Source of the DNA: a virus | Virus record (IMG/VR): IMGVR_UViG_3300015374_000025 | Span: 1-39,383 of that record | Reading direction: 5' to 3' (one strand) | Length of the DNA stretch: 39,383 nucleotides | In this document: positions 25 to 39,158 of the stretch, piece after piece | How the letters are laid out: each line of letters opens with the position of its first letter | How positions within the stretch are numbered: position 1 is the first letter of the stretch | The notes under the pieces: model-generated | The model's database searches: none | Told to the model about the DNA's origin: nothing | The model's input: only the letters and a program-made list of their open reading frames with translations | Translations under genes and position numbers: made by a program

Positions 25-40
25 GGGGGTGCTCACCCCC
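25..40. other. 7-bp perfect inverted repeat over the HNH stop codon
   Basis: GGGGGTG at 25-31 and CACCCCC at 34-40 are perfect complements around a 2-base centre, and they contain the HNH stop codon. There is no T run on either side, so it is not a standard terminator. It may be part of the cos/packaging region. Confidence 0.4.
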
Positions 41-371
41 GTCCTGATCGAGCCTCTCGCTGCGTCTTGATGTTGTGGCAAGGGGCGCAGAGGCCCTGAT
101 GATTGGACAGGTCTTCGCCACCACCTGCACCGAGGTTGACGATGTGGTCGTCCTCGGTTGATGGTCGCGTGCATCCGTCCGGCGTGCAGCGCCGGCAACC
201 CGGGCAGCGGCAGATGGGATCACGCTCGAGGACAAGCTCGCGTGTTCGTCGAGACGCACGGGTCGGTCCGGGTCGTGTGCTCGTCTGCCACTTCGGCTTG
301 CAGCTGGGGCAGAACGTCACGCCCACCACCCGGGTGTCGCAGCGTGCGCACTTCTTCGGAGCTCGGGGCAT
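33..371 (-). CDS. HNH endonuclease next to the genome end
   Basis: The protein has about 112 residues. It starts with a CxxC...CxxC zinc-ribbon pair (CARC, CPSC), and its C-terminal part carries an HNH nuclease core: the DDH motif, a central Asn (the LSNH segment), then CAPCHNIK. Once the map is closed into a circle, this gene lies just before the small terminase gene on the same strand. In HK97-like cos phages an HNH protein in that place works with terminase in cutting packaging ends; that role is inferred here. The ATG at 371 has a GTGAGG-type ribosome site; a GTG at 383 is an alternative start. It is the last gene of the early operon or the first of the late one. Confidence 0.85.
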   Translation of the reverse strand: MPRAPKKCARCDTRVVGVTFCPSCKPKWQTSTRPGPTRASRRTRELVLERDPICRCPGCRRCTPDGCTRPSTEDDHIVNLGAGGGEDLSNHQGLCAPCHNIKTQREARSGRG

Positions 372-441
372 CTTGAGCCTCACCGGTTCCGGGCGTGCTT
401 CGCCAACAGTTTCGCTGGACAGGGGAAAGATAGCACGGCGC

Positions 442-13217: not shown

Positions 13218-13582
13218 GCGGACTCACCCGCCTGCGGCTTGTCAGCCGTGAGCCGCCACGACACGCTCTTGGTCGCGAACCGGACGTAGGTCTCGGGGTC
13301 CTCGCGCTTGAGCTTCTTGGAGTCCACGCGCCAGCTCTCGGTCTGCACCAGGCGCAGGGGAGGGCCGGCCGGACCGGTGAGCGCGATGCGGGTGGACTCT
13401 GGGGCCGCGGTCTGCAGCTCGACCTTGATCGCGTCGGTGATCAGCTTCAGCTGCTCGTTCGCCTGGTCGGCTGCGGCCTTGGCGTCGGTGTACGACGCGT
13501 GCAGCTGCTTCAGCCGCCTCGACGCGGTGTCCTTCACCGGCGTGTACGGCTGCTCGACTTCGATGTTCGGTGCCTCGGTCAT
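13214..13582 (-). CDS. Coiled-coil-containing small protein, unknown function
   Basis: A 122-residue protein. Residues ~18-55 form a clear helical/coiled-coil stretch (RRLKQLHASYTDAKAAADQANEQLKLI). The C-terminal half is basic with several Trp and Lys residues (SWRVDSKKLKREDPETYVRF). I cannot assign a family. It is coupled by 4-bp overlaps at both ends. Confidence 0.6.
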   Translation of the reverse strand: MTEAPNIEVEQPYTPVKDTASRRLKQLHASYTDAKAAADQANEQLKLITDAIKVELQTAAPESTRIALTGPAGPPLRLVQTESWRVDSKKLKREDPETYVRFATKSVSWRLTADKPQAGESA

Positions 13583-14697
13583 GATGCTTGCTCCTGTTCG
13601 GTCTTGCGGTAGCGCTGGGAGTGGAGTCCGGTGACCCGCTCCAGCTCGTTGAGGGGCCGGCCTGAGTTGCGCCAGCGACGGGCGAGCTCGTGCTTCTCGG
13701 GCTTCGTGAGCGCGACGCTCTTGTCGCCGGCCATGCGTCGCTCGATAGCGACCTCATCCAGGTCGGCGTCTTCGGGGCTGCTCTCGTCGACGTCCTCGAG
13801 CGCCAGAGGCGGCAGCCAGCCAGCAGCGGCCGCGTAGTTGAGGGCTCGTGAGTAGGCGATGCGGTCTCGGTGCTCGGTGTGCGGCGGGATCATCATCGAG
13901 AGCTCGTCGTACAGAGCCTCGATCTTGTCGACCATGCCGCGGGACAACGTCCGTCCGTCACGGATGATGGGGATGAAGTTGCCGCGCTCCACCTCGAGGC
14001 GAGCCGCGAGCTTCGACTGGGACCAGCCGAGGGCGACCAGGGCACGGAGGTGGAGTTTCGCCAGAGGCGTGCGCTCATGGTCAGCCACGCCGGCGCTCAG
14101 GTTCTGCGGGATCGCCTCGACGGCGTAGATCCGCTCAGCCGTCGTACGCAGCACCCGACGGGCGGGTCCGCGGAGCAGGTCGCCGTTGCCCTTGCAGCCC
14201 TTGTGAGGGCCCTCGGCGGGGCCGTAGAGGCCGTACCAGATCTTGGTGAGCGAGCCATTGGAGACACCGGACAGCCGGCCGACCTGCTTGAGCCCGATGC
14301 CGTACTCCTTGAGCTCGGCCAGATGCAGCCGGACCGGGTAGGCGTCGACGTACTTGTGATAGCGGCCGTACGCCTTCATGCGCTCCCGCTCGTTCTCAGC
14401 AGCCGCGTTCGCCTTCGAGCACGGAATGCAGCGGCAGGCGTCCAGCACGTAGGTGGCGCGCTGGCCGTGCTGGTGGTTCGCCTTCTTGTGGAGGCAGGGC
14501 TGCGGGGTGCGGTCGATCGCTTCCTCGCGGATCGCAGCCATGACCTCGCGCAGCATCAAGCGCTCGCGCTTCTGGCAGGAGTGCTTGCTAAACCAGTGCC
14601 GCGCCTCCTTCACCGTTGCGGCGGGGTAGGCGGCCTGGAATCCGCAACGAGCGCAGCGGTAGGAACGCTCGACGCGTCGAGCTCGGCGGGTGCTCAT
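13579..14697 (-). CDS. Multi-helix-turn-helix DNA-binding protein with N-terminal zinc finger
   Basis: A 372-residue protein. The start has CARCGF...HSC, a C2-H-C-like finger, and a second Cys/His group follows (PCLHKK, CRCIPCS). At least two helix-turn-helix-like stretches are seen: GLKQVGRLSGVSNGSLTKIW near the middle, and GWSQSKLAARLEVERGNFIPI after it. The C terminus (RWRNSGRPLNELERVTGLH) could be a third. It is probably a transcription regulator or a protein that recognises specific phage sites. Its place in the early operon suggests control of early or middle expression. Confidence 0.7.
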   Translation of the reverse strand: MSTRRARRVERSYRCARCGFQAAYPAATVKEARHWFSKHSCQKRERLMLREVMAAIREEAIDRTPQPCLHKKANHQHGQRATYVLDACRCIPCSKANAAAENERERMKAYGRYHKYVDAYPVRLHLAELKEYGIGLKQVGRLSGVSNGSLTKIWYGLYGPAEGPHKGCKGNGDLLRGPARRVLRTTAERIYAVEAIPQNLSAGVADHERTPLAKLHLRALVALGWSQSKLAARLEVERGNFIPIIRDGRTLSRGMVDKIEALYDELSMMIPPHTEHRDRIAYSRALNYAAAAGWLPPLALEDVDESSPEDADLDEVAIERRMAGDKSVALTKPEKHELARRWRNSGRPLNELERVTGLHSQRYRKTEQEQAS

Positions 14698-15122
14698 GCC
14701 GGCACCGACTTCCGGGCGCCTGGCTTGGACCAGCGGTAGAGGTTGCCCGTGATGGAGTTGCAGCGGCCGCACGCCGGGCGGATGTTGTTCCGTCGGTAGG
14801 TGCCGCCCTTGTCGCCCGGGATGATGCGATCAGCAGTGACCTGGCAGGCGACGAGAAGACGTCCACATCGGTAGCACCTACAGGCCGGCTCACGCTTGAC
14901 GCTGGCGACCGCCTCCATGCGTTCGAAGTCGCGGATCAGGGCTTCGATCTCGTCGTTGTCCTTTGGCTCCCAGAACGTCTGCTCGTTGGTGTTGTCCCAC
15001 ACGATGACCACCACGTCGACGTCTGCGCGGAAGGTCTCGACCATCCACTGCTTGCGACGCCGGCGCGCTGCAGAGTTGCCCGAGCAGTTGCCGTTCGAGG
15101 TGCCGCGCGGCTGAGCAGTCAT
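14694..15122 (-). CDS. HNH endonuclease (second copy type)
   Basis: A 142-residue protein. The C-terminal half has a CxC..C zinc-type pattern (CRCYRCG), then DRIIPG with a basic loop, NNIRPACGRCN and a final Asn. This is a Cys-bearing HNH nuclease core in which the usual His of the first motif is replaced by Arg-Ile; activity is therefore less certain. The N terminus is basic and unstructured. It is inside the early operon, away from terminase, so it may be a homing-type or recombination nuclease and not a packaging one. Confidence 0.7.
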   Translation of the reverse strand: MTAQPRGTSNGNCSGNSAARRRRKQWMVETFRADVDVVVIVWDNTNEQTFWEPKDNDEIEALIRDFERMEAVASVKREPACRCYRCGRLLVACQVTADRIIPGDKGGTYRRNNIRPACGRCNSITGNLYRWSKPGARKSVPA

Positions 15123-34127: not shown

Positions 34128-34649
34128 CTACCGGCTGAGGACCTTCGCAGCGATCTCATCGGCCGACTTTTCGCCGTCACCGCCGACTGGTTCGCCCTGT
34201 TCGCCCTGCCCGTCCGCGGGCGGGGCTGCTGCTGCTGGCTTGACGCCGGCAGCGATGAGCTCGTCGGCGTGCGCCTCGAGCTCTTCCTTCGTGGAACCTC
34301 GGAGGAGGGACGGTGCTAGCTTCTTCGCAGCGCCGACCTCGTCACGGAGTTTCTTCGCAGCCTCAGCGGCGTCGGCTTCGGCCTTCGCCTTCTGGTCCGC
34401 TTCGTCGCGCTCCTTGAGTGCCTTTTCGGCCTTCTCCGCGCGCTCTCGCTCTCGCTCGACCTCGGACTTCGAGGACGCCTCGAGCTCGTCAAGGCGTTTC
34501 GCCTTGTCGGCGTTCTCCGTGGCGCGCTCCTCGTTCTTGCGGGAGAGCGCCTTCCACTTCTCAGCGTCGGCCTCGGCGGCCTTCAGCTTGGTTTCGAGCT
34601 CCTCGGCGCGCTTCTCAGCGGCCAGCTCGGCGTCGGTCTTCTCAGCCAT
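34128..34649 (-). CDS. Scaffolding protein
   Basis: A 173-residue protein with a long coiled coil (about residues 5-100, EKRAEELETKLKAAEADAEKWKALSRKNEERATENADKAKRLDELEASSK) and a disordered, acidic/Gly/Pro middle and a short helical end (SADEIAAKVLSR). This is the usual form of a capsid scaffold, which guides shell assembly and then leaves. Its ribosome site is GGGGAAG, and a paired palindrome stands before it. Confidence 0.85.
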   Translation of the reverse strand: MAEKTDAELAAEKRAEELETKLKAAEADAEKWKALSRKNEERATENADKAKRLDELEASSKSEVERERERAEKAEKALKERDEADQKAKAEADAAEAAKKLRDEVGAAKKLAPSLLRGSTKEELEAHADELIAAGVKPAAAAPPADGQGEQGEPVGGDGEKSADEIAAKVLSR

Positions 34650-34657
34650 GAAACTTC

Positions 34658-34691
34658 CCCGTTTCGGGTTTGGTGGTTGGTCCGTTTCGGA
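34658..34691. repeat. Paired palindrome CCCGAAACGGG upstream of scaffold gene
   Basis: CCCGTTTCGGG at 34658-34668 (plus strand) ends 9 bases before the scaffold ATG, and TCCGTTTCGGA is at 34681-34691, 23 bp apart start to start. On the minus strand the first copy runs straight into the ribosome site. The outer C/G pair of the second copy is replaced by T/A, which keeps the pairing. Confidence 0.7.
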
Positions 34692-34720
34692 CAACCCCGC
34701 CTCGTGCTGAGGCGGGAAAT

Positions 34721-35521
34721 CTATGCGGCCAGATCGTCGGGGCCGGTGAACTTCTGATCACGCCAGGTCAGCGTCGGGCCGTACTCGCCGTGTTCGCGCG
34801 TGACGATCATTTGCCGGTAGTCGGGTGCTCTGCCGCCTGAATCGGAGGCGCCGCCGAACTTCTCAACCTGCTCGTGCGTGTCTCGGAGTAGATCGAGGTC
34901 GAGGGTCTGTTCCTCGGCCCCGTCCTCGAGCTCTTTGACTCCGCAGTTGCAGCCCGGGTGAATGGGCATCAGGTCACCGGACCGGTAGCGCTGGGTCGAA
35001 GCGATGACGCACAGCGCACAGTTCTTGAGACCCGTTAGCACGCGCCCGTAGAACTGGGCGCCTGTCGCAGAGTACGAAGCGGACGCCTGCCTGACCTTCG
35101 CCATCTGCAGATCCATCATGACCAGGTCGCCCAGTCGCGACGCTCCCGCAGCCAGTGCGACATCGAACGTCTTGCCCTTGCTGAGCTCGCGATAGAGCGT
35201 CTTCGCGGGACGGCGATAGACCTCGATGGCCGGGACGCCCCTGCCTCGCGTCACCTCAGGATTCACGGGGACCGGCATGATCCGCTCACCTCGACGAACT
35301 GAGGCGGCAGATGCGATGTAGGCCGATGTCAGGTTGGCGATCTGCAGCTGGCCCGCCTGCACCTTCGGCGCGATCTGCGCAACGATCCGGTCCACGTCGG
35401 AATCGTGATAGGAGCTAGATCCGGACCAGACCAGGTCGGCGTACATCTGCACCCGCGCCCTGACAAGCGCGACGGCCGAGTCGTAGCCGACCAGCACCTG
35501 CTCGGCAGTTGCGGTGGCCAC
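34721..35521 (-). CDS. MuF-like minor head protein
   Basis: A 266-residue protein. The central region (LVMMDLQMAKVRQASASYSATGAQFYGRVLTGLKNCALCVIASTQRYRSGDLMPIHPGCNCGVKEL) has the Cys and HxxCxC ligands of the phage Mu F / SPP1 gp7-like head morphogenesis domain. It sits on the portal and is ejected or aids DNA entry in relatives. It is next to portal with a 3-base gap. Confidence 0.82.
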   Translation of the reverse strand: MATATAEQVLVGYDSAVALVRARVQMYADLVWSGSSSYHDSDVDRIVAQIAPKVQAGQLQIANLTSAYIASAASVRRGERIMPVPVNPEVTRGRGVPAIEVYRRPAKTLYRELSKGKTFDVALAAGASRLGDLVMMDLQMAKVRQASASYSATGAQFYGRVLTGLKNCALCVIASTQRYRSGDLMPIHPGCNCGVKELEDGAEEQTLDLDLLRDTHEQVEKFGGASDSGGRAPDYRQMIVTREHGEYGPTLTWRDQKFTGPDDLAA

Positions 35522-35524
35522 GAG

Positions 35525-36901
35525 CTACGCCACCGGCACGGGCAAAGGTGCCGCTGGCGCGGCCTGCGCCACGAGGATCGCAGCCTCGAGCTGCTCAGCG
35601 GCACGGTCGATGTCGTCCTGCGCGATCTGGTCCGGCGTCATGCCGAGAATGTCACGGCGGATCGTGGTCTGCGCGAGACCGGCGGCCTTGGCCTGGGCGG
35701 CAGCGGCGTACCGCTCCGTCAGACTCACATGCTCCGGCGGCTGGAAGCCGACCTCGACGGTCGCCCCACCTAGGTCGACATTCTCGGCCTGAAGGGCATG
35801 GACGAACACCAGCGCCAGGCTCGCCTCAAGGCGGTCGATCTCGTCCTTGGCCATCAGGATCTGAGCTTCCTTGGCATTCGCTGCGCCCTCGGCCGATTGG
35901 TTCTCGCCCTCCGGCACGAATACCGAGATGGCGGTCTTCGTCGCCGCGGCGAAGTCCCTGGCATCGGTCTTCTCGCCCTCGAGCATCGGCCGAATGTCCG
36001 TCTGCTGGGACTCCCAGATGTCGATGCCCTCGGGAAGGTCCCACAGGGCGCCAGGCGCCGGCTCGAACACCTTCGCGTAGTCGATGTCGTTGTCGTCCTC
36101 GTCCTTGCGCTCGAGGCCGGCGCTGCCCTTCTCGGTCTTCAGCGCGCGCTGACGGAACGCCTGCATCGCTGTAGTGACGAGCCGCTGCAGCTTGCCCTCG
36201 TTGATTCGGTCGATGACGTCCAGGTGAGGCTCGATCAGCCCTTCACCGTCCTTGCGCTCCAGGATCGCGATAGGCGGCGCGCCCTCGTACAGCTCGGGTT
36301 CGCCATCGGACGCCCAGCCGCCGTCGGCAGTCGTGTAATCGCTGCCGTATTCGTTCGTCGAGGAGCGTGAGAACTTCTGCCGTTGGCCCGCGACCCATAC
36401 GAGCGCATAGTCCTTCTTCGCGATCCGGTCGCGCCAGATCTTGATCCCGGCCAGGGCCTTCCACGGCCGCATCGGGTCGGGGGCTGCGTAGAACTGCTCA
36501 GGGCGCTCACGAGTCACTACCGACGTCCCGTCGGGAGCGATCCCGGTCACCATGTAGCCCTTGCCGGTGTCCAGGTAGTCGATGATCGCGTCGGCGAACT
36601 GGACGCTGAGGCGGTTGTCACGCCAGATCCGGCGGGCCGTCACCGCGGCGTCACTCGTCGTCGAGTCACCTACGCGCACCGCGTTCGGCTTGATCCGCAT
36701 CGCGAGGGAGTCGCGCGCCAGGCCACCGAAGTTGGTGCGGGCCTTCTTCTGGAACGCCTGCCACGACGCCTTCACGTTCTTGCCCATTTCGGGCAAGGGC
36801 GCATTGCCGTTGTTGTAGTTCCTGAGCTTGTGGATCCGCGGGAACTCTTGGTCGAGGCGCTTGGCGAGGATGGGCAGCCACTCTTCGGGCGTAGTAGGCA
36901 C
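35525..36901 (-). CDS. Portal protein
   Basis: A 458-residue protein of the SPP1 Gp6-like portal group (WLPILAKRLDQEFPRIHKLRNYNNGNAPLPEMGKNVKASWQAFQKKARTNFGGLARDSLAMRIKPNAVRVG...; ADAIIDYLDTGKGYMVTG...; YERVI and LEASLALVFVHAL helix region). It forms the dodecameric ring through which DNA enters. The start is a GTG at 36901, preceded by AGGTGG. The ORF could be extended upstream, but that would overlap TerL's end. Confidence 0.85.
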   Translation of the reverse strand: MPTTPEEWLPILAKRLDQEFPRIHKLRNYNNGNAPLPEMGKNVKASWQAFQKKARTNFGGLARDSLAMRIKPNAVRVGDSTTSDAAVTARRIWRDNRLSVQFADAIIDYLDTGKGYMVTGIAPDGTSVVTRERPEQFYAAPDPMRPWKALAGIKIWRDRIAKKDYALVWVAGQRQKFSRSSTNEYGSDYTTADGGWASDGEPELYEGAPPIAILERKDGEGLIEPHLDVIDRINEGKLQRLVTTAMQAFRQRALKTEKGSAGLERKDEDDNDIDYAKVFEPAPGALWDLPEGIDIWESQQTDIRPMLEGEKTDARDFAAATKTAISVFVPEGENQSAEGAANAKEAQILMAKDEIDRLEASLALVFVHALQAENVDLGGATVEVGFQPPEHVSLTERYAAAAQAKAAGLAQTTIRRDILGMTPDQIAQDDIDRAAEQLEAAILVAQAAPAAPLPVPVA

Positions 36902-36915
36902 CGGTCGACCACCTC

Positions 36916-38604
36916 TCAGTAGAGTCTGCGCGGCACCTTCTTGGCACGCCGGCGGGGTTTCGCGTTGGTCTTGATCGCCTCGAGATAGGCGGTCCACGAC
37001 AGGACAGAAGCCATCGCGAAGTCGAACTTCAGGTCGTCGCGGCCGTCCTGCTTCTGCAGGACCCACAGCGGCTGACCCTCGTCATCGCGGATCTTCAGGT
37101 TCTTGCGGCCCGCCTGGCCGATGTGGCGCAGCAGGTCTTCGCGCTGCTCATCGGTCCCGCCGTACGAGATCGTTGAGCCGTCGATCGCCTCGACGTAGGA
37201 CCGAAGCGTGTAGGCCATGAGCTTCGGCCGGGCCGTCCACCACTCCTCGACCTGGTCTGGGTACTTCACGGCCCAGTCGCCCATTGGCTCGATCCAGTGA
37301 GGCGGATCGCCGAAGAGCTTCCAGACGTCGAACCGGACCATGATGTCGTCGAGCGCCTCGGAGGCCTCGAGCGGATCAATCTCCCACTCGTCAACGTCCT
37401 TCGGCCGTTCCCACCCGGCTAGCAGCTGCTGCATGCCGGTGCGGATGTCGGTGGCGACGAACCCAGTGGAGTCCTTGAACCGCGCCCCGTCGAACCCGAG
37501 GGTAATGAACGCGCCGTCCGGGATCTGCTCGTCCTGCTTCTCGAGCGCCTTGACCTTCAGGAAGTCGAACGCGACGGAGCCGGATCGGCGCCACCGGTTC
37601 ATCCAGACGCGCTCCAGGTACGCGTGGTCAGCGGTCGGCCGGTCCCAGCGAGATGCGATGTCCTCGAACTGGCCGGGCCCGAACTCGCCTGTTGGTCCGG
37701 TGGCGTCCGCGACAGCCTTGACGCGGTTCTCGAACGCCTGCTCTTTCGTGACCTCGGGTCGGTGCTTCGTCGCCGGCGACGCGACGAGATCGACATGCTC
37801 GTCGCCCGCCCACCGAGAGAAGAAGAATAGCTTCGGGTTGGCTACCTCGCCGCGGTCGATCGACTCGGCCTCGGATCGAAGATCCTCCTGGACCGAGTTC
37901 TGGCCGGGCTGCCCAGCCGTCGACGTGTAGAGCGCCCACGGCTCCTCGAGCGGCCGCTTGGGGAGGTTCGCGTCCATCGTCGTGTGCGTCTCTTTGTGAG
38001 ACGGCAGGATAAGGCGGTGCGGCTCGTCGAAGTGCTGGAACGTGGTCAGCGCACCGTCGCGAGCACCAGGCGCATTCGCCATGGCCTGTGCCTTGCCGTC
38101 GGCTGAACCCGACGGGCCCTTCCGCAGGATCCTGTCGAGCGACGCGTCGAACAACGATGAGTCCGGGCCTTCCTCGACCACGTATTTCAGGACGCTGTAT
38201 GCAAGGTCAGACGCCTGGCCCTCGGTGACGGCCAGCATCGGGATGTACGGGAACTTCACCGGCCTGCCGACCGGACTGCCGTCGGCGTCGAACCCGTCGC
38301 CCCGCACGGGCGCCTCAGGGTGCAGCTCGACGTACGCGATCCACGCCGCGAACTCGGTCTTCGCCAGGCCCTTGCGCACCTCGATCCCGCCGCGCTGGAA
38401 CCGGCGCCGGCTCGCCAGGCGATGCCCTTGGGGGTTGACCTCGTACAGCCGATACAAGATGCCGCGCTGCTCAGCGGTCAGGCGTGCAGGACGACCCGCC
38501 AGTGAGCCGGGCCCGAAGACGGCACGTTCCTCAATGAACTCCGCGATCGCCGGGCCGAGCGTCGGATACGCCAGGTCAAGCTCCGGGACGACGAGTGTCG
38601 ACAC
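36916..38604 (-). CDS. terL: Terminase large subunit
   Basis: A 562-residue protein. The ATPase part has a deviant Walker A (EVRKGLAKTEF) and Walker B with catalytic Glu (TTFQHFDEPHR). The nuclease half has LGFDGARFKDSTGFVATD (first Asp), a mid Asp region (DDIMVRFDVWKLFGDPPHW) and a last Asp (DDLKFDFAMASVLSW). It packages the genome and cuts it. The Walker A deviation is common in actinophages. Confidence 0.93.
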   Translation of the reverse strand: MSTLVVPELDLAYPTLGPAIAEFIEERAVFGPGSLAGRPARLTAEQRGILYRLYEVNPQGHRLASRRRFQRGGIEVRKGLAKTEFAAWIAYVELHPEAPVRGDGFDADGSPVGRPVKFPYIPMLAVTEGQASDLAYSVLKYVVEEGPDSSLFDASLDRILRKGPSGSADGKAQAMANAPGARDGALTTFQHFDEPHRLILPSHKETHTTMDANLPKRPLEEPWALYTSTAGQPGQNSVQEDLRSEAESIDRGEVANPKLFFFSRWAGDEHVDLVASPATKHRPEVTKEQAFENRVKAVADATGPTGEFGPGQFEDIASRWDRPTADHAYLERVWMNRWRRSGSVAFDFLKVKALEKQDEQIPDGAFITLGFDGARFKDSTGFVATDIRTGMQQLLAGWERPKDVDEWEIDPLEASEALDDIMVRFDVWKLFGDPPHWIEPMGDWAVKYPDQVEEWWTARPKLMAYTLRSYVEAIDGSTISYGGTDEQREDLLRHIGQAGRKNLKIRDDEGQPLWVLQKQDGRDDLKFDFAMASVLSWTAYLEAIKTNAKPRRRAKKVPRRLY

Positions 38605-38610
38605 CGCCGG

Positions 38611-39096
38611 CTACTTGACGAGCTCGAGGCGAGGATCGTTGCCCGTCGGCTTGTTGGTCCGGCGACGCTTCTTCGGCGCTCCGTGATCCTGACCTTTGGC
38701 GGCGGCAGCTGCAGCCGCGGCGGCCTCTGCGGCCGGATCGTTCGGGGATCGAAATTCCCACTCGAGCCGACGACGATCGTAGGGCGTGAGTCCGAGAGCA
38801 GCGCGGTGCTGTCGGAACTCGGCGGCCGCCTCCTTCCGCGCCGTCGCGGTGGTCGCGGTCCAGAAGTCATTCAGCAGCATCGCGGTCACCACGACATTCG
38901 CGCGGTCAGAGGCGTGCCATTCGTTCGACATCGGTGCTGACCAGACGCCCTTCCACCACATCCGAACCTGTGCGTGCCACTTGACGCCGGAGGGCATTGC
39001 CGGCACCGGGTACTTCTTGGTCAGGTCGAGCTTGGCGGCGCCGGCGGCCCGGTTGGCCCGGGCCCTGGTGCTGGCTGGCTTCTTGGGCTGCGGCAT
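38611..39096 (-). CDS. terS: Terminase small subunit
   Basis: A 161-residue protein. The pattern (KYPVPAMPSGVKWHAQVRMWWKGVWSAPMSNEWHASDRANVVVTAMLLNDFWTA) and place just before TerL fit TerS. The C terminus is Ala-rich and basic (KKRRRTNKPTG). It would recognise the pac or cos site. The ribosome site is GGGAGG, and its first GGG is the end of a palindromic repeat. Confidence 0.82.
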   Translation of the reverse strand: MPQPKKPASTRARANRAAGAAKLDLTKKYPVPAMPSGVKWHAQVRMWWKGVWSAPMSNEWHASDRANVVVTAMLLNDFWTATTATARKEAAAEFRQHRAALGLTPYDRRRLEWEFRSPNDPAAEAAAAAAAAAKGQDHGAPKKRRRTNKPTGNDPRLELVK

Positions 39097-39106
39097 CGGA
39101 CGTCCT

Positions 39107-39140
39107 CCCGTTTCGGGATCGCGCCGCGGCCCGTTTCGGG
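39107..39140. repeat. Paired palindrome CCCGAAACGGG upstream of TerS
   Basis: CCCGTTTCGGG (plus strand) occurs at 39107-39117 and 39130-39140, again 23 bp apart start to start. The first copy is 10 bases before the TerS ATG and overlaps its ribosome site. This layout is the same as at the scaffold gene. Confidence 0.7.
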
Positions 39141-39158
39141 AAGCGGCGGTCGTGCTGA

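Follow-up and report, generated by a model that had tools for sequence, protein, structure and literature searches.

A candidate twin-hairpin translational operator in the leaders of terminase small subunit and scaffold genes of actinophages

The units for the terminase small subunit (TerS) and the head scaffolding protein in IMG/VR virus record IMGVR_UViG_3300015374_000025 (39,383 nucleotides, all of which were analysed and are referred to as the window) are each headed by a 5′ leader containing two tandem RNA hairpins, the second of which is fused to the Shine-Dalgarno sequence. These twin hairpins probably represent a translational operator and, as such, a previously unreported switch for head-protein production. 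The proportioning of TerS, scaffold and capsid at the mRNA level is poorly understood in tailed phages. The occurrence of one compact RNA element in phages of Mycobacterium, Gordonia, Microbacterium and Streptomyces renders this question testable in phages of M. smegmatis (TChen, cluster G).

Exact copies of CCCGTTTCGGG were detected at positions 34658-34668, 39107-39117 and 39130-39140 (+ strand), and the variant TCCGTTTCGGA at 34681-34691. Read on the coding (-) strand, the TerS leader has the form CCCGAAACGGG-N12-CCCGAAACGGGAGGACGTCCG-ATG and the scaffold leader the form TCCGAAACGGA-N12-CCCGAAACGGGGAAGTTTC-ATG. By a hand calculation from base composition, the window should contain about 0.06 exact copies, so that the presence of three, within two 23-bp pairs, is not due to chance. 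The earlier note had described such paired palindromes running into the ribosome sites of head genes; both statements were confirmed, the genes being those for TerS (ATG 39096) and scaffold (ATG 34649), both on the - strand and identified by Pfam and PHROG. Copies of CCCGTTTCGGG with two mismatches are at background level (13 observed versus 18.7 expected), and the single one-mismatch copy (CCCATTTCGGG at 36783, within the portal gene) is probably a chance occurrence. The features, read from the sequence unless another basis is given, are as follows:

39122..39148, - strand: TerS leader, hairpin 1; an outer CGCCGC/GCGGCG stem carries the CCCG-AAA-CGGG core at 39130-39140 (sequence and fold)
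39106..39118, - strand: hairpin 2 of the TerS leader, UCCCG-AAA-CGGGA, 3′ arm within the Shine-Dalgarno sequence
39104..39109, - strand: GGGAGG, the Shine-Dalgarno sequence of TerS, which shares bases with the 3′ arm of hairpin 2
34675..34698, - strand: scaffold leader, hairpin 1; a GGUUG/CAACC stem, interrupted by one bulge, carries the UCCG-AAA-CGGA core at 34681-34691 (sequence and fold)
34658..34668, - strand: scaffold leader, hairpin 2; CCCG-AAA-CGGG, merging into the Shine-Dalgarno sequence (sequence and model R1)
34654..34660, - strand: GGGGAAG, the Shine-Dalgarno sequence of the scaffold gene, which shares bases with the 3′ arm of hairpin 2
34696..34716, - strand: another strong hairpin, CCCGCCUC-AGCAC-GAGGCGGG, adjoining hairpin 1 of the scaffold leader on its upstream side
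38611..39096, - strand: TerS gene (Pfam Terminase_7, PF25673, E 4.9e-22)
34128..34649, - strand: gene for the head scaffolding protein, which probably starts at ATG 34649 (match to PHROG head scaffolding at E 4e-13; alignment A5)
36916..38604, - strand: terminase large subunit (TerL) gene, downstream of TerS in the same unit (PHROG 9, E 1e-42; present in 17 of 17 carrier genomes)
33..383, - strand: HNH-type gene, which would be the nearest one upstream of TerS on a circular record (present in 17 of 17 carrier genomes; order as in annotated relatives)

Covariance model R1 matched both leaders, at 39094-39151 for TerS (E 5e-18) and at 34647-34702 for scaffold (E 7.5e-18). Hairpins resembling CCCGCCUC-AGCAC-GAGGCGGG are present in several relatives, as judged by eye. 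The TerS family (window 38611-39096) is named 'minor tail protein' by PHROG 226 and several RefSeq records; Pfam and gene order identify it as terminase small subunit.

The element heads whole units, namely TerS-TerL-portal-MuF and scaffold-capsid, and the gene downstream of it was TerS or scaffold in 254 of 291 cases. In Streptomyces phages an extra gene (MARLQILELPEG...) is located between the element and TerS (L533 3444-4238, L501 10751-11557 and VWB gp31); its copy in L533 yielded no Pfam or PHROG match. Annotated scaffold starts fall within the hairpins themselves (GAA-ATG-GG) in the M. abscessus prophage prophi62-1 (L477 5755, hairpin 2) and the Gordonia phage PhorbesPhlower (L479 3817, hairpin 1), where translation probably begins at the ATGs downstream, with which the model match ends. 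Authentic translation starts are marked by the element, and some of them are probably misannotated.

Pairs at 23 bp, for which the earlier note had proposed a database search, were found by scanning IMG/VR for the core pair at the window spacing in 31 contigs, two of which (L019 and L031) are near-identical fragments of the window's phage and hence not independent. The element precedes TerS and/or scaffold genes in at least several hundred IMG/VR contigs and is kept in distantly related phages. Among the matches listed by a core scan without fixed spacing, the second copy meets a Shine-Dalgarno sequence 7-14 nt before ATG in about 55 distinct leaders, and the genes following these are almost always TerS-like or scaffold-like. 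When homologues were fetched by protein similarity alone, a sense-strand R1 match was obtained for 76 of 80 scaffold loci (E<1e-9 in 66), some contigs of this set having also fed model R1, as compared to 17 of 80 TerS loci; the element is therefore tied more tightly to scaffold. Of 16 carrier genomes searched with model R1, most gave two strong sites. Cultured carriers comprise the Mycobacterium phages TChen and Angel (cluster G; CCCGAACCGGG), DotProduct of cluster F (GAAAU loops before TerS), PhorbesPhlower, Microbacterium phage vB_MoxS-R1 and Streptomyces phage VWB, whose scaffold family is common to SF1 and SF3. Carriers among M. abscessus prophages are prophi62-1, prophiT36-2b, prophiGD11-1 and prophiFSIL01-1, the last with variant stems around the same loop (e.g., GCGCGAAACGCGC and UGCGAAACGCA). 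Apricot, Babsiella and ReT1v possess the TerS family and lack the element; Angel, 62-1, T36 and PhorbesPhlower possess the scaffold site and no Terminase_7 TerS. Whole-genome searches with R1 gave matches in 5 of 299 Microbacteriaceae and in none of about 880 genomes of three other orders, zeros that show little as only 18-19 candidates were scored per genome. Matches from a wide-gap core scan of genome contigs were mostly chance. Searched against phages by tblastn, one scaffold gave no match and another 134 records.

Evidence for structure at the RNA level comes from an alignment of 53 leaders, in which the flanks provide a fair test of pairing since the search had fixed the nine-base core alone. 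Hairpin 1 has a variable stem, about 3-13 bp long, that carries a GNNAC loop. In its six pairs outside the core, 72.4% of cells are paired, versus 44.5 ± 2.7 in shuffled and at most 45.5 in slid controls; both-side changes occur in all six, and the covariation score is 0.665 versus 0.245 (reached in 0 of 500). Hairpin 2 has a 4-6 bp stem, the same loop class as hairpin 1 and a 3′ arm that is the Shine-Dalgarno sequence, with which it is fused 7-14 nt before ATG in all leaders. Its pair adjoining the core is C-G in 40, U-G in 9 and U-A in 3 leaders and is unpaired in none of 52. G-U combinations number 45 versus 43.7 expected by composition and A-C combinations 12 versus 22.8, counts inflated by related sequences; that G-U is kept and A-C halved fits RNA of the coding sense. 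Pairing probability of the Shine-Dalgarno sequence is about 0.8 in folded leaders and 0.40 in the scaffold leader of the window; in the folded TerS leader of the window, four of its bases are paired with a mean probability of 0.97. The ribosome-binding site is thus covered by an RNA hairpin conserved by pairing, as is characteristic of a translational operator. Among the Rfam 15 covariance models, tRNA alone scored above the gathering score in 10 loci including the window, and at E up to 5 the TerS leader gave one chance lncRNA match and nothing else. Both hairpins could further be enclosed by an outer stem, GCTGTA...TACAGC, in leaders of the Streptomyces class (e.g., L533 3400-3440).

The gap between cores ranges from 8 to 18 nt across relatives without helical phasing. 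The 23-bp step emphasized in the earlier note thus holds for both pairs of the window but not as a general rule, and was discarded as a defining feature, being a coincidence of the window's phage. Orientation is fixed: of 64 start-associated pairs, 60 have their A-rich centre on the coding strand and 4 show the opposite arrangement. Covarying stems, unphased spacing, fixed orientation and the preference of G-U over A-C together argue for an RNA structure rather than a DNA operator. They disfavour the late-activator operator considered in the earlier note and support its alternative of paired RNA hairpins, the control of translation by these being suggested by the fusion to the Shine-Dalgarno sequence. 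More broadly, a site on double-stranded DNA for an activator or repressor, or for TerS at cos/pac repeats, would agree with the palindromic core, with one copy lying near the presumed cos region before TerS, and with the fact that TerS proteins bind DNA. Such a site is nevertheless very unlikely: besides variable spacing and biased orientation, the flanks covary freely without conservation of their bases, the second site is located 4-5 kb away before the scaffold gene, and carriers have no DNA-binding regulator in common apart from packaging proteins. The helix-turn-helix proteins proposed in the earlier note as binders (13579-14772 and 442-1596) are absent from most element-carrying genomes.

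The loops fall into two classes, xAA and xCA, i.e. GAAAC and GACAC; loops other than AAA were also seen in the motif-free homologue sets. In a scan with two loop bases free and with the third loop base A and the CCG/CGG arms fixed, the middle loop bases of hairpins 1 and 2 in 69 distinct start-associated leaders were A/A in 43, C/C in 24, U/U in 1 and G/A in 1, and hence equal in 68 of 69 (Fisher 1e-18). Contigs that carry both sites have one and the same class in their TerS and scaffold leaders, except for L508. Class changes number at least 10 on the TerS tree and at least 12 on the scaffold tree, of which strongly supported branches force at least 3 and at least 7, respectively. Since both hairpins switch class in step and repeatedly, a trans-acting reader is implied. 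A pure RNA structure without reader, tuning ribosome access or Shine-Dalgarno exposure at a set rate, would be compatible with a hairpin 2 that is short, overlaps the Shine-Dalgarno sequence and is of modest stability (median -5 kcal/mol by fold prediction); stability alone, however, would not demand conserved loop letters that switch together in both hairpins and usually at both sites, which makes this reading highly improbable. Among cultured phages the C class is the Streptomyces class. Exact-pattern genome searches are in line with this split, with ACA in 2 and AAA in 0 of 192 genomes of the Streptomyces order and ACA in 0 and AAA in 2 of 194 Microbacteriaceae, though these tiny counts are too few to conclude from.

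As to the reader's identity, the genes retrieved from all 17 carriers by iterated HMM searches are those for HNH, TerS, TerL, portal and one further protein of the head-tail region, and neither BLAST nor iterated HMM searches of these 17 genomes disclosed a common dedicated regulator. As no other gene is common to carriers, the reader would be a conserved head or packaging protein or a host RNA-binding factor. Scaffold is no universal reader, as homologues are missing from two carriers with the TerS site only (G005 and W01) in a search that took the window as its starting point. Nor does TerS clearly qualify as the reader, because pairs about 68% identical fall into different loop classes and its N-termini are nearly alike in both classes and in phages without the element. 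The N-terminal basic motif RARRNK of TerS was rejected as loop reader on account of its presence in both classes and in phages without the element; this segment is conserved in many Terminase_7 proteins, element present or absent. No single phage protein stands out, and a host factor is equally possible.

From the predicted structure and its conservation, position and matched loop classes we infer binding of a factor, and repression rather than activation. Each leader would fold into hairpin 1, followed after 8-18 nt between cores by hairpin 2 holding the Shine-Dalgarno sequence. A trans-acting RNA-binding factor would recognize both loops together and, once bound, stabilize the weak hairpin 2 (about -5 kcal/mol), thereby blocking ribosome entry; hairpin 2, being short, may also act without need of a factor. 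The proportions and timing of TerS and scaffold would in this way be matched to the rest of head assembly. Quite possibly, the sites form an RNA regulon of tailed actinophages not described before, in which one loop-reading protein per phage (either a host factor particular to the lineage or a head or packaging protein that plays a second role) binds the twin GNNAC hairpins in TerS and scaffold leaders and sets head-protein synthesis, the GAAAC/GACAC code having switched many times together with its reader. The element points to an RNA-binding reader of repeatedly changed specificity and could become a small expression tool for actinobacteria.

An effect on translation could also be indirect, if the element served mRNA processing, stability or termination (cleavage, end-protection or attenuation). 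Its position at the head of whole units, the extra gene before TerS in Streptomyces phages and the four or more T following hairpin 1 in about 10 of 53 leaders (mostly scaffold, by eye) would suit such a role. We consider it unlikely, as the fusion of hairpin 2 to the Shine-Dalgarno sequence in all leaders is not needed for processing, most leaders lack a T run, and the matched loop switches are not readily explained by a constant host nuclease. At neither site of the window was an intrinsic terminator (GC-rich hairpin plus T run) found.

Several other repeats were noticed in the collected contigs. L062, L075, L099 and L060 (also L068 and L094) contain (T)AACCGAAACGGT(A) in pairs spaced by about 25 bp, which in the first four precede ORFs like MNLTDYAISKGGTAKIGCPV; these pairs look like a different system, perhaps DNA operators. 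Tandem pairs of CCGAAACGGTAGC away from start codons (L001, L002, L009, L022, L023 and L026-L028) form a separate class. Three or four copies of CCGAAACGG at an exact 23-bp period are arranged in an iteron-like manner in L020 (947-1024) and L017 (5202-5256). In L006, L007 and L016 a GTG start is preceded, at a distance of about 30-40 nt, by a further CCGAAACGG pair with an N14 spacer; some copies have CCGAAAGG-like boxes between pair and GTG.

With respect to known systems, the coat-replicase hairpin of MS2/R17 and the T4 operators of regA, gp32 and gp43 are small RNA sites over phage ribosome-binding sites that are read by proteins. The comparison concerns the way of working; the present element consists of tandem hairpins at two sites in tailed actinophages. 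The boxB elements of lambda and P22 are small hairpins with GAAAA or GACAA pentaloops read by N, each phage type having its own reader. The twin hairpins resemble them in size and in their loop classes GAAAC and GACAC, but the final base of the loop is able to pair with the first G, and the element overlies the ribosome-binding site of late genes. An N-like gene was not found, and carriers share no non-structural gene. Synthesis of the P22 scaffolding protein is autoregulated post-transcriptionally, which balances assembly, and we know of no twin-hairpin operator in P22. The open-licence literature searched contained no report of the present element and nothing relevant on RNA motifs of phage scaffold or terminase genes.

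Conserved repeats at the ribosome sites of a subset of actinophage genes are also represented by the start-associated sequences (SAS/ESAS) of cluster K and the start-associated repeat (EF motif) of cluster EF Microbacterium phages (PMC7302621). The SAS is an asymmetric 13-bp sequence (GGGATAGGAGCCC) at ribosome sites of non-structural genes only, in the right genome half, and its authors found little support for hairpins (PMC3203893). The resemblance to cluster K drawn in the earlier note therefore holds in idea only, whereas the twin element, with symmetric hairpins of unrelated sequence before structural genes, does not belong to SAS/ESAS. Single inverted repeats of 17-18 bp shortly before starts characterize clusters EG (Microbacterium) and O (Mycobacterium), those of EG numbering 8-10 per genome and lying 14-22 bp before starts of right-end genes (PMC7302621). 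From these, as described, the element is set apart by its tandem hairpins, its fusion to the Shine-Dalgarno sequence and its link to TerS and scaffold. All these published start-associated repeats of actinophages lie at other genes than the twin element and differ from it in form (PMC3203893, PMC7302621).
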